A stretch of DNA of 64,000 bases from Halopelagius inordinatus (GTDB lineage: Archaea; Halobacteriota; Halobacteria; Halobacteriales; Haloferacaceae): assembly GCF_900113245.1 (NCBI RefSeq), contig NZ_FOOQ01000002.1, forward strand, positions 656,881-720,880. The letters run 5' to 3'. The notes beneath the pieces were generated by a model. It worked only from the letters and a program-made list of their open reading frames with translations. It was not told where the DNA came from and ran no database searches. The position numbers and the translations under genes were made by a program. Below are positions 16,271-23,802 of the stretch, in pieces. How positions within the stretch are numbered: position 1 is the stretch's first letter; every line of letters starts with the position of its first letter.

Positions 16271-16336
16271 CTCGCTCTGTTCGTCGGGTGCGAACAGCCA
16301 CGGACCTCTTCACCCGTCGTCGTGTACGATTCGGAG

Positions 16337-17191
16337 ATGAGTACTGACGACGAGGGAGGGCCGTCCGGGGCGTCGCTCTCCTACAGCAACATCCTCGAAC
16401 GGGAGATGGAGAACGCGCTCAAGGAACTCGGCAGGCCGAGCAAAGGGCTGTTTCTCTCCGGTCTCTCCGCGGGGATGAATCTCAGCTTCGGCGCTCTGTT
16501 CATGGGGATGGTACTGACGTTCTCGACGGAGTTTCCGTCGGACCTCGTAAAGCAGTTCGTCCTCGCGTCGGCGTCGTCCGTGGCGTTTCTGTTCGTCATC
16601 CTCGGGCAGACGGAACTGTACACCGCTCACACGACGCTCGCCGTGTTGCCGGTGCTCGACGGACGGACCGCCCTCCGCGAACTCGGACGCCTCTGGGGGA
16701 TAGTGTACGTCGCGAATCTCTCCGGCTGTGCGGTGTTCGCCGGTCTCATCGCCGTTCTCGGACCCCAACTCGGAATCGTCGCCCCGTCGGCGTTCGACAG
16801 TCTCGCGCGGACGCTCTTGGCTCACCCGTGGTGGGTCATCCTCCTGTCGGGAGTCGTCGCCGGATGGTTGATGGGTCTCGTCACGTGGCTCGTCGCCGCC
16901 AGTCGCGACACCATCGGACGAGTCGTCATCACGCTCGTCGTCACCGCCGCCATCGGCTTCGGTCCGTTCCACCACGCCATCTTGGGGACGACGGAAGTTC
17001 TCGGAGCGATGTTTCTCGGAACCGGCGTCGGCCTCGGCGAGTTCGGAACGTTCCTGCTCTGGACGACGGTCGGTAACACCCTCGGCGGCGGCGTGTTCGT
17101 CGCCGGTCTCAACTACGGTCACGCCGCCCTCGCGGGCGAAGAGAAAGACGTCACCATCGAACCGGGTTCGGACGCCATGGAAGAGGACTGA
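16337..17191 (+). CDS. formate/nitrite transporter (FNT) family channel
   Basis: A polytopic protein of 284 residues. The N-terminus (YSNILEREMENALKELGRPS) and first helix (GLFLSGLSAGMNLSFGALFM) are the FNT signature. The later helices (GQTELYTAHTTLA, TTVGNTLGGGVFVAGLNYGH) contain the conserved pore and filter segments, including the last-helix NTLGG motif. FNT channels carry small monovalent anions such as formate, nitrite or hydrosulfide. The halophilic acidic tail is short. The specific ion cannot be read from the sequence. I use ATG 16337; another in-frame ATG is at 16322. Confidence 0.9.
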   Translation: MSTDDEGGPSGASLSYSNILEREMENALKELGRPSKGLFLSGLSAGMNLSFGALFMGMVLTFSTEFPSDLVKQFVLASASSVAFLFVILGQTELYTAHTTLAVLPVLDGRTALRELGRLWGIVYVANLSGCAVFAGLIAVLGPQLGIVAPSAFDSLARTLLAHPWWVILLSGVVAGWLMGLVTWLVAASRDTIGRVVITLVVTAAIGFGPFHHAILGTTEVLGAMFLGTGVGLGEFGTFLLWTTVGNTLGGGVFVAGLNYGHAALAGEEKDVTIEPGSDAMEED

Positions 17192-17296: not shown

Positions 17297-18091
17297 ATGA
17301 GTCTGAGAGCATTCTTCCGGAACGACGCGGTCGAAGAGACGGTCGAAGCGGCGGCGGAAGAGGCGATAGAAGACGACAGCGAAGGCCAGTCGGAGGCGGC
17401 GCGGACCGTGCGGTCGGTCGCGTCGCAACTCCCGCGTAAGGTTCTGCTCCTCGGCGGCGGAGCGGCCGCGTTGGCGTACTTCGCCACCCGCCGCGCGGGG
17501 TCCGGCGCGTCGGCTCCGTCCGCCGACGAGGTTCGCGAGACGGTCGAAGAAGCGCGAGAAGACCCAAAGAGCGTCGTCTCCGCCGAGGGGTCGGACGACG
17601 AAACTGAGGGAGACGACAGCGAACGAGAACGAGAGGAGATGGAGGTCGAGACGGAGATAGAGATAGAGACGGGCGAAGGCGTGGAGGTAGAAGTCGAAGC
17701 GGAGACCGAACTCGAACGAGAGGGAGAGAACGAAATCGAAGTCGAGTCGGAAGTCGAAGTGACGGCCGAACGGACGGACGACGAGGACGAAGCGAGCGAC
17801 GACGAAGCGAGCGACGACGAAGAAGCGGAGGCGGACGACGACGAGGCCGACGAGGAAACGGTCGAAACTGAGGAGGACATCGGAGAGACGGACGACGAAG
17901 ACGGCGAGAAAGAAGCAGAGACCGACGAGGAAGACGGCGAAGACGACCTCCCCGGAGAGGAGCGAACCGACGAGGAGATAAACGAACGGGCGGCCGAAGA
18001 CGTCGAATCGGAGTCTCCGGACCCGGGCGAGATGAACGTCGACGACGAGGCGGTGACTGAAATCGTGGGCGAAGAGCGCTCCGAGGAGTAG
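17297..18091 (+). CDS. membrane-anchored, extremely acidic low-complexity protein (264 aa)
   Basis: The N-terminal 45 residues are ordinary (MSLRAFFRNDAVEETVEAAA). One hydrophobic segment follows (KVLLLGGGAAALAYFATRR, about 48-66). From about residue 95 to the end it is almost entirely Glu and Asp with repeated E-V-E and D-D-E units. The tail probably forms a highly charged disordered region in the cytoplasm or outside. I do not recognise a family. The DNA is compositionally biased by GAG/GAC codons, which is why apparent ORFs exist in the other frames. Confidence 0.75.
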   Translation: MSLRAFFRNDAVEETVEAAAEEAIEDDSEGQSEAARTVRSVASQLPRKVLLLGGGAAALAYFATRRAGSGASAPSADEVRETVEEAREDPKSVVSAEGSDDETEGDDSEREREEMEVETEIEIETGEGVEVEVEAETELEREGENEIEVESEVEVTAERTDDEDEASDDEASDDEEAEADDDEADEETVETEEDIGETDDEDGEKEAETDEEDGEDDLPGEERTDEEINERAAEDVESESPDPGEMNVDDEAVTEIVGEERSEE

Positions 18092-18347: not shown

Positions 18348-19592
18348 ATGGAGATAGACGGAGTTGTCTCGACGGACTACGTCGAACAAGACGCCAAGAC
18401 ACCTGTGTCGAAACTCCGCGGTGCGTTCGATACGAACGAAGACCGCGTCATCGTGATCACGAACGGAGGCTCGTTCGAGGGCGTCGTCTCGCAGAAACAA
18501 CTGCTGTCGTCGCACCACCCGCCCGAGGAGACGGCGCTGAACGTCGCCACCGCGCCGCCGAAGGTATCTCGACACGAGGACGTCCGCGAAGTCGCCCGAC
18601 TGATGGTCGAGAACGAACTGAAGATGCTCCCCGTCTTCGACGAGGGAGAGAAGTTCGTCGGCGTCGTGAAGGCGATGAATCTCGTCGACGAGGTACAGGA
18701 GAATCTCAACGCACTCGACGTCGAAGACGTCTACACGCAGGACCTCATCTCGGTCGAACGCGAGACGACGGTCGGACAGGTCATAAATCACCTCCTCGAA
18801 AACCGCATCTCGCGCGTGCCGGTCGTCGAAGACGGGGCCGCAGAGGGGATGGTCAGCATGTCCGACCTCGTCGAGTTCACCGTCCGGCAGGTGGACCAAG
18901 AACAGGGCGGAAACGCGGACGGGTTCGACGGCCACGGCGGCGAAGGTTCGACCGCCGACTTCCGGGCGTCGAGCGGCGGATACGGCGAACGCGCCGGGGA
19001 CTCGGCGCGGTTGCTCGACCTCCCCGCGAGAGACGTGATGACGCCAGCCGCCTACACGACGACGCCCCGAGCGCAACTCGGCGACGCCATCGGAGAGATG
19101 CTGGAGAAGAACTGTTCTTCGCTGATCGTCGTCGAAGAGGAGACGGACGACGTCGTCGGTATCGTGACCGTGACCGACGCCCTCGACGCCCTCACGAACA
19201 GCGACGAAGAGCGCATCCCGGTCCAAATCTTCAACGTGAAGATGCTGGACACCCTCTCGCGGGAGGACGTCGCGAGGCGAATCGAGGAGATAGACGCGAA
19301 ACACGCCGAGATGGATATCCTCGAAGCGAAAGTCGTCTTCCACGAACACGAGGAACGCCTCCGGGGGATGCCCCTCGTCGAGACGACGGTCAGACTGTTC
19401 ACCGACAGGGGTCGGTTCTTCGGGTCCGCCGAGGAGTACGGCGCGGAGTCGTCGTTCGGCACGGCGAGCGAAATCGTAGAGGAGAACGTCCTCGAAGACA
19501 AGAGCCGAGACGTGACGTCGCGGAACGACCGGCCGACGCCGGAGAAGCGAGAGGAAGTAGAGAGCGTCGTCGATTGGTGGGTCGAAGGCTGA
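18348..19592 (+). CDS. four-CBS protein with C-terminal HPF/RaiA-like domain
   Basis: A 414-residue protein. CBS motifs are seen at about 1-58, 64-118, 121-180 (VPVVEDGAAEGMVSMSDLVE) and 228-285 (SLIVVEEETDDVVGIVTVTD), with a Gly-rich linker at 186-222. The last part (about 290-387: VQIFNVKMLDTLSREDVARR ... VETTVRLFTDRGRFFGSAEE) has the beta-alpha-beta-beta-beta-alpha pattern and the H/R-x-x-A/G-S-A-E signature of ribosome hibernation-promoting factors (HPF/RaiA). CBS pairs sense adenosine nucleotides, so the design suggests energy-dependent ribosome inactivation. The HPF call is by eye. Other CBS roles such as channel or enzyme control are possible. Confidence 0.8.
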   Translation: MEIDGVVSTDYVEQDAKTPVSKLRGAFDTNEDRVIVITNGGSFEGVVSQKQLLSSHHPPEETALNVATAPPKVSRHEDVREVARLMVENELKMLPVFDEGEKFVGVVKAMNLVDEVQENLNALDVEDVYTQDLISVERETTVGQVINHLLENRISRVPVVEDGAAEGMVSMSDLVEFTVRQVDQEQGGNADGFDGHGGEGSTADFRASSGGYGERAGDSARLLDLPARDVMTPAAYTTTPRAQLGDAIGEMLEKNCSSLIVVEEETDDVVGIVTVTDALDALTNSDEERIPVQIFNVKMLDTLSREDVARRIEEIDAKHAEMDILEAKVVFHEHEERLRGMPLVETTVRLFTDRGRFFGSAEEYGAESSFGTASEIVEENVLEDKSRDVTSRNDRPTPEKREEVESVVDWWVEG

Positions 19593-19642: not shown

Positions 19643-21286
19643 CTACCGCGCCGTCGCCCGCGTCGCCGCCGCGACGCGCGACTCGTTCGACGCCGCCTCG
19701 GCCGTCGCAGTCTCGTTCGCGTTCGTCTCGCTTTCCGCCGTCCCGCTGTTTTCCGTCTCTCCGACGACGTAGCGTTGCCCCACCATCGGGTCGAGCAAGC
19801 TATCGACGGGCGCTCTGTCGTCGCGGAGAACCGGCACGTCGTCGGTCCGTTCCTCGTTGCGGTACGACGCTATCTCCTCTGTGAGGTCGATTCCGATGTC
19901 GCGCCGTTCGTTGCGCGCTCTGAGTTCCGATTCGGAGATGCGCGTGCCGTTCTTCGTCGCCACGACTTCGATGTTCTGAACGACGATACCCTGCTGTGTC
20001 GGGAAACTGTACACCTGCGGGAACACCTGCGACATCGTCTTGTACTGCGCGCGGTAGAACTGCGAGGCCGGGCCACTCGGCGCGGAGATGACGTTCGCAA
20101 AGAGGATGCCGTCTTCGGTGAGTCTGTCGCTGGCGAGTTCCATGAACTCTACCGTCGTCAACTGGAACGGCACTTTGTCCTTCTTGTACGCGTCGAGGAC
20201 GATGAGGTCGTACGTCTCGTCTGTCTCTCGGAGGAACTGCCGTCCGCCCGTGGTGTGGATGGTCAGGTTCTCCGACTCCTCGACTTCGAAGTACCGCTTT
20301 GCCACGTCGACGACTTCGGGGTCGATTTCGGCGACGTCCACCTCGACGTCGTACTCCTCGGCGAATCGCTTCGGACCGGTGAACCCGCCGCCGCCGATGA
20401 ACAGCACTCGGTCCACGTCGTCTGTCATCAAGAGTGGGAGGTGAAAGTACGGCGTGTAGTCGAAGACGTGGGCCGTCGGGTCCGCTACATTCATCGCGCT
20501 GTGGGGTTGCCCGTCGAGGTACAGCGTGCGCGTGTCGCCGCTATCGACCACCTCTAACTCCTGATACGGCGTCTGCGTCTGGTAGACGGTGTCGCCCGTC
20601 GCTGAGAGTCCGACGCCGCCGGACGCGGCGGCGACGACGAGGAGGAGGGCGACGACCAGACTCCGTCCCGCGCGTTGCCGTCCGAGTTTCGGGGCGGCGA
20701 CGTACACCGCGGTGGCGACGGAGAGAAGACCGAAGACGAGTCCGATCTGTTCGACGCTCAAAGAGGGGATGAGAAAGTACGTCGTCGCGAACGCGCCGAC
20801 GATGCTGCCGACGGTTCCGACGGCGTAGACGTGCCCCGACGCCTCGCCGGTCCCCTCTTTCGCCGAGAGTTCCGCGGCGTAAGGACTGATGAACCCGAGC
20901 AGGTACGTCGGCGGGCCGAAAAGAAGCGTGATAGCCGGAAGCGAGGCGAACCGACTCGGAAGGGGGAACGCCACCGCCGCCTGCAGCATGACGTCGCCGA
21001 AGAAGATGACCCCGGCCACGTAGAGCGCAGTTGCCAAAAACAGTTTCACCATCCGGTCGTTCGAGGCCTGCGAGTCGGCGTGCCGCCCTCCGTGGTGGTA
21101 ACCGAGACTGAGGGCGGCGAGAAACACGCCGATGATGCTACCCCACGTGTAGATGCTACTGCCGAACTGGGGCGCGATCATCCGTCCGGCCAGAATCTCC
21201 AACCCCATGCTGGCCACGCCGGAGGAGAACACCGCGACTTCCGGTTTCGACAGTCGGAGAGCAGACCGAGAGAGCGTCGACGCCAT
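19643..21286 (-). CDS. membrane-bound spermidine-synthase-like methyltransferase-fold protein
   Basis: A 547-residue protein. The N-terminal half has about seven to eight hydrophobic helices (GLEILAGRMIAPQFGSSIYT at 28-47). The C-terminal half is a spermidine-synthase fold: VLFIGGGGFTGPKRFAEEYD, VDVAEIDPEVVDVAKRYFEV (aminopropyl donor acid residues) and YDLIVLDAYKKDKVP. An acidic-polar tail follows. This fusion is common in haloarchaea and actinobacteria, where the role is uncertain (polyamine synthesis or a related transfer at the membrane). The residue after IDPE and the DAY motif suggests substrate differences from soluble SpeE. No polyamine genes are adjacent. Confidence 0.85.
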   Translation of the reverse strand: MASTLSRSALRLSKPEVAVFSSGVASMGLEILAGRMIAPQFGSSIYTWGSIIGVFLAALSLGYHHGGRHADSQASNDRMVKLFLATALYVAGVIFFGDVMLQAAVAFPLPSRFASLPAITLLFGPPTYLLGFISPYAAELSAKEGTGEASGHVYAVGTVGSIVGAFATTYFLIPSLSVEQIGLVFGLLSVATAVYVAAPKLGRQRAGRSLVVALLLVVAAASGGVGLSATGDTVYQTQTPYQELEVVDSGDTRTLYLDGQPHSAMNVADPTAHVFDYTPYFHLPLLMTDDVDRVLFIGGGGFTGPKRFAEEYDVEVDVAEIDPEVVDVAKRYFEVEESENLTIHTTGGRQFLRETDETYDLIVLDAYKKDKVPFQLTTVEFMELASDRLTEDGILFANVISAPSGPASQFYRAQYKTMSQVFPQVYSFPTQQGIVVQNIEVVATKNGTRISESELRARNERRDIGIDLTEEIASYRNEERTDDVPVLRDDRAPVDSLLDPMVGQRYVVGETENSGTAESETNANETATAEAASNESRVAAATRATAR

Positions 21287-21606: not shown

Positions 21607-23802
21607 ATGGTAGAATTCAGCAGGCGACAGCTCATGGCGACGTCGGTCGCCGCATCGCTCGGAGCGACCGTACCAGGCGTGGTGGCCGCCGAAGAAGTAG
21701 AGGAGAGCGACACACCGGGCGCACCGAGTGTCAAGGGTGATCTCAAGCGATTCTCGACGACCGCGTTCGGAGCGGAGGTGACGGGGCCGTTCGTCTTCGA
21801 GGACGGGTCGTTGCTGTACAGCCTCCAGCACCCGTCCGAAGAGAACGGCGACCCGTTCGGGCGGGCGGCCGTCGGCTACTTCAGCGGGTTCCAGTTCGAC
21901 TTCGACGGCGACAACGACGACTTCGATGAGATCGGAATACCGGAAACCGAGGAGGAACAACGCGACGTCCGCGCGGGAAGCGGGGACTACGAGATCCTCT
22001 TTTACGGGCGCGAACCGATCAACGGCGGCGACGAACTCCTCGGCGTCACCCAGACGCCGGACGGGACCGACATCATGCGCGAAAGTCCCGAGGACCCCGA
22101 ACGCGAGGAACGGCCGTACTTCGCGGGCACGCAGTACGGACTCGCCGCGAGCAACCCCGACTGCAACCAGTTCGTTCCGTCGAACGACGAGGGGACCGAA
22201 GGATATCTGTTCACGAACTGGGAGAACAGTCCCGGCTCCGTCTCTCGGGTTCCCATCAGTCAAGACGAGGACGGAGAGTGGCACGCCGACCTCGAAAACG
22301 CGATGAACCTGACCAACACGGAGTCGCTTCGCGCCCACGGCGGTACGCGGATCAACTGTTACGGCGACCTCTCCCCGTGGGGGACGATGGTCTCCGCCGA
22401 AGAGAACTACTCGCACCCGCGCGTCAACTTGACGGCGAAAGTGAGCGACATCGCCGAGGCGGGCTCCGGGTTGGGACTCGTCGGCGCGGCCCACTTCTGG
22501 AACCGACCGAACCCCAGCGAGATATCGGACGCGATATCGACGTACGCCGAGGAAGACTACCTCGACGAGGACTTCAGCCCGCAGGGCTACTGGTCGCTGA
22601 CCGGCGTCGAGTTCCTCGCGTACTACCTCGGCTCCGACCAGAACGACCAGGTCGACGACCAGAACCTCAGGACGTCGCCGATAGACGACGTCTACCCGAA
22701 CCCGTACCGCTACGGCTACTTCGTCGATTTCCGCGAACCGACGGCCGACGAGCCCGAAGCGGTCAAGTACTACGTGATGGGTCGGGCCGCCTGGGAAGCG
22801 CCGGACTTCGAGGGCGACCTCAAGACCGTGTACGGCTGTTCGGACGGCGACAGCAAGGGGATCTACAAGTTCGTCGCCGACGAGCCCATCCCCGACTACG
22901 ACGACCCGATGGACGTCGCCGGAACGCTCTACGCGCCCAAGATCACGAACGACGAGGCGAGCGTCGAGGACTCGGGCCAACGGAACTCCCCGGCGGACGT
23001 TCCGCTCGAAGTGGAGTGGCTGGAACTCGGACACGCGACGAACGCGGAAGTCGAGTCGTGGATCGACGACTACGACAACGTCACGCAGGTCGACTACCTC
23101 GAAGCCCACGCCGAGACCAACTGGGCCGACGACCCGGCGACGGCGTTGCGAGAGGCCGACCTCGAAGTCATCCACAACGGTAACTCGAACTACATCGACA
23201 ACAGGGACATCGTCAGGTGGGCCGAACAGTACGAGGAGAACGGGCCGAACGGCGTCGACGAGGAGCTCCGGCGCGTCCCGTTCTTGGAGACCCGAGCGGC
23301 CGCAAAAGAGGTCGGTGCCTCTATCGAGTTCAACAAGGCCGAGGGCGTCGACAGCGTCGACGACGCCGGACCCGGCGACTACGTCTACTTCGGCATCTCT
23401 GAGTTCAACGATGCCCTCGCCGACGACGAGGGCGACGTCCAGATGGACCGCGTCGACGGCGGCGTCGTCTACCGCGCCGAACTCGAAGACGACTACAACG
23501 TCTCGGAACTCGAACCCGTCATCGTCGGCCCGGACTTCACCGACCCGCCGGAGGACGCCGACGACGCACTCCGAAACATCGACAACGTCTACACGATGCG
23601 CGACGGCCGCGTCCTCTGCTGCGAGGACGGATTCGGCGGGCCCGCCCGGTCGTACCCGAACGACGGACTCTACGTCTACCAGCCCGAGAGCGTCGGCAAG
23701 ACGGTCTCCGACTACCTGAGCCAGAGCGACGAGGACGACGACGAAGATGGCGACGAGGACGGCGACCATGAGGGTGACGACGAAGGGGGCGACGAGGACT
23801 GA
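21607..23802 (+). CDS. Tat-exported PhoX-like (DUF839) alkaline phosphatase
   Basis: A 731-residue secreted protein. The N-terminus SRRQLMATSVAASLGATVPG is a twin-arginine signal, so it is exported folded. The DUF839/PhoX core includes WGTMVSAEENY near residue 258, the Ca/Fe ligand region of the family, and GRVLCCEDGFGG near the end. The last 35 residues are an Asp/Glu/Gly tail. PhoX enzymes are phosphomonoesterases using Fe and Ca and work in phosphate scavenging outside the cell. A strong TATA element sits upstream in AT-rich DNA. Phosphate control is likely from family habit, not from a seen site. Confidence 0.85.
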   Translation: MVEFSRRQLMATSVAASLGATVPGVVAAEEVEESDTPGAPSVKGDLKRFSTTAFGAEVTGPFVFEDGSLLYSLQHPSEENGDPFGRAAVGYFSGFQFDFDGDNDDFDEIGIPETEEEQRDVRAGSGDYEILFYGREPINGGDELLGVTQTPDGTDIMRESPEDPEREERPYFAGTQYGLAASNPDCNQFVPSNDEGTEGYLFTNWENSPGSVSRVPISQDEDGEWHADLENAMNLTNTESLRAHGGTRINCYGDLSPWGTMVSAEENYSHPRVNLTAKVSDIAEAGSGLGLVGAAHFWNRPNPSEISDAISTYAEEDYLDEDFSPQGYWSLTGVEFLAYYLGSDQNDQVDDQNLRTSPIDDVYPNPYRYGYFVDFREPTADEPEAVKYYVMGRAAWEAPDFEGDLKTVYGCSDGDSKGIYKFVADEPIPDYDDPMDVAGTLYAPKITNDEASVEDSGQRNSPADVPLEVEWLELGHATNAEVESWIDDYDNVTQVDYLEAHAETNWADDPATALREADLEVIHNGNSNYIDNRDIVRWAEQYEENGPNGVDEELRRVPFLETRAAAKEVGASIEFNKAEGVDSVDDAGPGDYVYFGISEFNDALADDEGDVQMDRVDGGVVYRAELEDDYNVSELEPVIVGPDFTDPPEDADDALRNIDNVYTMRDGRVLCCEDGFGGPARSYPNDGLYVYQPESVGKTVSDYLSQSDEDDDEDGDEDGDHEGDDEGGDED

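Follow-up and report, generated by a model that had tools for sequence, protein, structure and literature searches.

HibA is an archaeal ribosome hibernation factor that consists of four CBS domains followed by an HPF/RaiA domain, and it is present in 47% of archaeal genomes (PMC13324472, Nat Commun, April 2026). The C-terminal domain of HibA occupies the mRNA/tRNA channel of the 30S subunit, while its CBS module adopts three positions on the 50S subunit; HibA inhibits translation in vitro, and its deletion results in lower 70S pools and delayed regrowth (PMC13324472). In Thermococcales, HibA has also been physically linked with DNA recombination proteins (as cited in PMC13324472). A haloarchaeal member, HVO_2384, had already been recognized as a protein in which tandem CBS domains precede a hibernation-factor domain at the C terminus (mBio 2025, PMC12607858). 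Haloarchaeal paralogues are not a subject of the main text of the HibA paper (PMC13324472). Two further groups are of relevance here. Dri of Pyrobaculum and SriA-D of Methanosarcina are ribosome-bound CBS modules without an HPF/RaiA domain, and the bacterial HPF/RaiA proteins (PF02482) carry no CBS module.

The DNA analyzed here (the window) is a 64,000-nucleotide stretch of the Halopelagius inordinatus genome. Positions 18348-19592 on the plus strand constitute a 414-residue open reading frame with no interruption, and its start agrees with the M-D-I-x-D... starts of its relatives. In a PDB sequence search, the encoded protein aligns with P. abyssi HibA (9sr9_H; E 5e-34) over segments 3-176 and 211-385, and a profile built from its relatives finds the same protein with an E value of 1e-64. 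The alignment with HibA from P. abyssi and Thermococcus barophilus runs end to end, with the same order of four CBS domains and then HPF/RaiA. Hence, the earlier note, which read the gene as a hibernation factor combining a CBS tetrad with an HPF/RaiA-like domain, was right in kind, and the protein is a HibA homologue. The note also held the fusion itself to be the unusual feature; this is wrong, since the combination is known both from HibA (PMC13324472) and from HVO_2384 (PMC12607858). Collectively, the PDB alignments, the predicted fold, and the position in the tree (see below) make us confident that the gene product is a ribosome hibernation factor of the HibA family and, more precisely, the second, long-loop paralogue found in some Halobacteria.

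The CBS tetrad is recovered as four stretches matching PF00571 in Pfam (E 6e-33) and as four CBS units in an AlphaFold2 model (47 homologues as input, mean pLDDT 82), in which they are followed by a C-terminal domain and a helix, with a disordered segment at residues 181-218. On the basis of Pfam, the model and motif counts, CBS1 covers approximately residues 1-55 (18348-18512, plus strand as for all parts of the gene) and lacks the ribose-site Asp/Asn; CBS2 covers approximately residues 62-116 (18531-18695) and has a degenerate site (KAMN). CBS3 corresponds to approximately residues 121-179 (18708-18884; best Pfam stretch 125-177) with an intact S-x-x-D (S170, D173), and CBS4 to approximately residues 222-285 (19011-19202) with an intact T-x-x-D (T274, D277). 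Between CBS3 and CBS4 lies a Gly-rich loop (residues 181-218, 18888-19001), which is delimited by the alignment, loop lengths, and a pLDDT below 50. The HPF/RaiA-type domain spans residues 291-385 (19218-19502), as judged by the model topology and profile matches, and a C-terminal helix, seen in the alignment and in the model, spans residues 398-413 (19539-19586). Neither the loop nor this helix was mentioned in the earlier note. The helix is absent from P. abyssi and T. barophilus HibA; it is partly conserved in the long-loop clade, where it terminates in GWW/WW. The folds nearest to the CBS module are the ribosome-bound SriA and Dri, together with AMP-bound CBS proteins. The window protein as a Dri, that is two fused CBS modules and no HPF domain, was considered and ruled out, as it has one CBS module and an HPF domain.

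The assignment of the C-terminal domain deserves some comment, because a Pfam search with the window protein gives no match to PF02482 (Ribosomal_S30AE) above the gathering cut-off. This comparison had been proposed as a check, and it is negative for the window protein itself while its relatives do match: PF02482 is found, weakly, in six of 19 full-length long-loop relatives and in 23 of 29 related C-terminal domains across archaea (best E value 8.7e-6). A profile of the domain searched against PDB sequences returns the two HibA chains first and then mostly bacterial hibernation factors, the latter individually weak [6qbz (E 0.028), 5njt, 6s0x, 5myj, 5nd8, 8uu4, and 9sda]. Moreover, the structure prediction places strands at residues 292-295, 324-338, 341-352, and 355-364 and helices at 305-318 and 366-383. 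This order, strand-helix-strand-strand-strand-helix, is the HPF/RaiA topology, and the pLDDT in the region is approximately 89-96. (The domain folded alone from its single sequence gave a poor model, pLDDT 49, and that result was set aside.) The domain thus has its topology and a remote profile similarity in common with bacterial HPF/RaiA, although its own sequence is beneath Pfam detection, and the matches of the relatives and the predicted fold together make a convincing case that it is an HPF domain. By analogy with HibA, it is predicted to bind in the 30S mRNA/tRNA channel. One detail had been misread: FGSAEE is not typical of HPF proteins, the family consensus at this site being G/A-S-G-E-G-Y/W-G, from which the subclade of the window protein strays (A361 and E363 in the alignment).

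In P. abyssi HibA, a single AMP/ATP site is located between CBS3 and CBS4, with affinities in the order AMP > ADP > ATP (PMC13324472). The window protein and nearly all its haloarchaeal relatives retain an intact S/T-x-x-D/N motif in both CBS3 and CBS4, and the motif is mostly missing from their CBS1 and CBS2. Because the intact motifs match the P. abyssi site, the CBS3/CBS4 interface of the window protein probably binds AMP or ATP. The suggestion that the energy state controls ribosome silencing finds no such backing, as neither AMP nor ATP clearly changed the binding of P. abyssi HibA to the ribosome, and its conformational landscape on the ribosome was largely unchanged by both nucleotides (PMC13324472).

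The H. inordinatus genome (14 contigs, 99.9% complete) encodes a second HibA of 380 residues (C2:555259-556398). It has the same architecture and is 42-43% identical to the window protein; this copy, the window copy, and the gene for uL5 are all on one 943-kb contig. In a tree of 84 sequences, the haloarchaeal HibA proteins fall into two clades (support 98/95 and 98/98), and the split persists when the CBS module alone, with the loop removed, is used (support 95 and 89). This split, with a distinct long-loop clade, is what is new here and the part that is worth a specialist's follow-up. The two clades differ in the length of the CBS3-CBS4 loop, which in the same alignment columns comprises 26-40 residues in the long-loop clade compared with 13-16 in the short-loop clade and the outgroups. 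P. abyssi and T. barophilus HibA also have a loop at this position, the "PTC loop" in the former; that of the window protein is Gly-rich and exceeds the loop of short-loop homologues and of these two proteins by approximately 22-24 residues. The glycines at both ends of the long loop are invariant or near-invariant.

The distribution of the two forms is also different. Short-loop HibA (HVO_2384 type; loop of approximately 15 residues) is slower evolving and nearly universal, being present in 61 of 64 good-quality genomes, whereas the long-loop clade is patchy and found in about 22 of the 64. The long-loop relatives were gathered with an alignment as the query; the single window protein used as the query returned no related loci. 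Among 40 haloarchaeal plasmid records with near-full-length HibA, a single one can clearly be assigned to the short-loop type, namely that of Natronorubrum bangense (58% to the short-loop query). Judged from these sequence records, the long-loop form is the accessory paralogue, often residing on megaplasmids. The gene neighborhoods differ as well: across 80 named loci, 19 of the 41 short-loop genes and none of the 39 long-loop genes have radB at a distance of up to 6 kb, and a universal stress protein gene is near 16 of the 39 long-loop genes compared with one of the 41 short-loop genes. In H. inordinatus, a RadB-like gene is likewise in the neighborhood of the short-loop copy (locus L009, 5260-7439). 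A suspected frame break in the locus of one relative (L137) was rejected, as it proved to be the ordinary stop of the gene.

A homologue from Haloferax mediterranei provides a link to the ribosome. The window protein aligns over residues 1-392 with PDB chain 9l96_a (E 6e-90), and the same chain is present in 9l98, 9l9c, and 9l9v. The chain is the product of the H. mediterranei pHME505 gene (WP_004060604.1; 100% identity over the 388 residues compared) and places in the long-loop clade. It has the same architecture and loop position as the window protein and is approximately 41% identical to it; however, it belongs to another sub-branch and is encoded on a megaplasmid. The content of the PDB entries was probed by sequence search with the H. 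inordinatus ribosomal proteins uL5, uS12, and uS7 and with aIF6. A haloarchaeal uL5 chain was found in 9l94, 9l95, 9l96, 9l98, 9l9c, 9l9j, 9l9k, and 9l9v, and haloarchaeal uS12 and uS7 chains were found nowhere in the PDB copy searched. Consequently, the four HibA-containing entries are apparently large-subunit particles, and 9l96 as a 70S structure is ruled out as far as the deposited models are concerned. A haloarchaeal aIF6 chain is present in 9l9c, 9l9j, and 9l9v and hence in two of the four HibA-containing entries (9l9c and 9l9v). aIF6 is an anti-association factor that blocks subunit joining. The composition of these entries points to an association of long-loop HibA with free 50S subunits. 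A focused map in which the 30S subunit was present and not modeled would weaken this for the two entries that lack aIF6. For P. abyssi HibA, a 50S-HibA particle was not seen (PMC13324472). A literature search found neither a paper on 9l96, 9l98, 9l9c, or 9l9v nor a published experiment on any long-loop member. With regard to its surroundings, the pHME505 gene adjoins a universal stress protein gene (locus L175, 6001-8481), and genes for a ribonucleotide reductase, a superoxide dismutase, and an IS1595 transposase are close by.

By its membership in this family, long-loop HibA would be expected to silence and protect idle ribosomes. In which form the ribosome is engaged is another matter. In 36 matched genome pairs, the HPF domain of the short-loop protein is better kept than its CBS module (identity 0.75 vs 0.64), whereas in the long-loop protein the two are alike (0.51 vs 0.50). 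This pattern fits a weaker selection on 30S binding, and it could also be due to a faster evolution in general. In the window protein, some near-invariant HibA positions are changed (R379 to E, G363 to E, and G361 to A), the first two being retained in P. abyssi and T. barophilus HibA. The surrounding subclade (Halomarina, Halobacteriales QS_8_69_26, Halorussus, and Halocatena) has lost G363 and mostly R379. The HPF domain of the window protein is, in addition, unusually acidic, and its net charge of -9 is among the lowest of 73 long-loop rows. Given the lost conserved positions and this acidity, its binding to the 30S subunit may be weakened.

These data raise the possibility, to which we give somewhat less than an even chance, that the long-loop paralogue is specialized for free 50S subunits, those bound by aIF6 included, with the CBS disk and the Gly-rich loop capping the PTC or the tunnel entrance and the HPF domain under relaxed constraint. 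In this scenario, its role would be the storage of unjoined large subunits or a late step in the maturation of the 50S subunit, and 70S ribosomes would be left to the short-loop paralogue; this refines the assignment as a hibernation factor and does not deny it. In favor are the occurrence of the H. mediterranei homologue together with uL5, and in two cases aIF6, in entries for which no haloarchaeal uS12 or uS7 chain exists in the PDB copy, the loss of the preferential conservation of the HPF domain, and the extra loop with its conserved end glycines as the defining insertion of the clade. However, the argument depends on the sequence membership of the entries, where 30S chains may have been omitted from a focused map, the relaxed constraint could reflect a faster evolution overall, and the sub-branch of the H. 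mediterranei protein is not that of the window protein. A more tentative formulation is that Halobacteria possess an additional, accessory HibA, frequently encoded on megaplasmids, whose role has moved away from the silencing of 70S ribosomes and toward the capping of free 50S subunits that carry aIF6. The enlarged Gly-rich loop and the relaxed HPF domain would be the signs of this change, and the window protein would be a chromosomal and further diverged member of the clade.

The divergence of the window copy can also be read as decay, in which a duplicate that is partly redundant with short-loop HibA is losing its ribosome binding. Its end branch is long (0.5), it departs from the family at 12 of 76 conserved columns (median 2), and the changes include K to V, R to E, and G to E. 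We nevertheless consider decay unlikely, since the 414-residue frame is intact, the CBS3/CBS4 nucleotide-site motifs are retained, and several of the changes are common to relatives with 60-61% identity (Halomarina halobia and an uncultured Halobacteriales). Less probable still is a CBS-domain regulator acting off the ribosome, on transcription, transport, or metabolic enzymes, in the manner of HhpR. NCBIfam models for CBS regulators do match the CBS part, far under their cut-offs, but the homology to HibA is full length and includes the HPF domain, a homologue is present in 50S entries, and a separate stand-alone four-CBS protein in the same genome fits HhpR better. The latter (C1:54918-55637; locus L004, 1510-2352) is matched by the HhpR model from end to end (E 6e-44, under the cut-off) and is likely of the CM-3 type. 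For the window protein itself, we favor a HibA-type factor that would act on the ribosome.

The presence of two paralogues provides a setting to ask whether different hibernation factors store 70S ribosomes and free 50S subunits, and it raises the further question of whether an accessory replicon can bring a hibernation factor. H. mediterranei is genetically tractable and a known carrier of the long-loop gene. With respect to genomic context, a comparison of the window with 42 long-loop loci revealed no conserved gene neighborhood. Directly upstream of the window gene (17297-18091, plus strand) is a gene for an extremely acidic protein of 264 residues, with 75 Glu and 33 Asp and without a Pfam match. 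The convergent gene downstream (19643-21286, minus strand) encodes a spermine/spermidine synthase-like domain (PF01564), and the region is flanked by a formate/nitrite transporter family gene (16322-17191, plus strand) and a PhoX-like phosphatase gene (21607-23802, plus strand).
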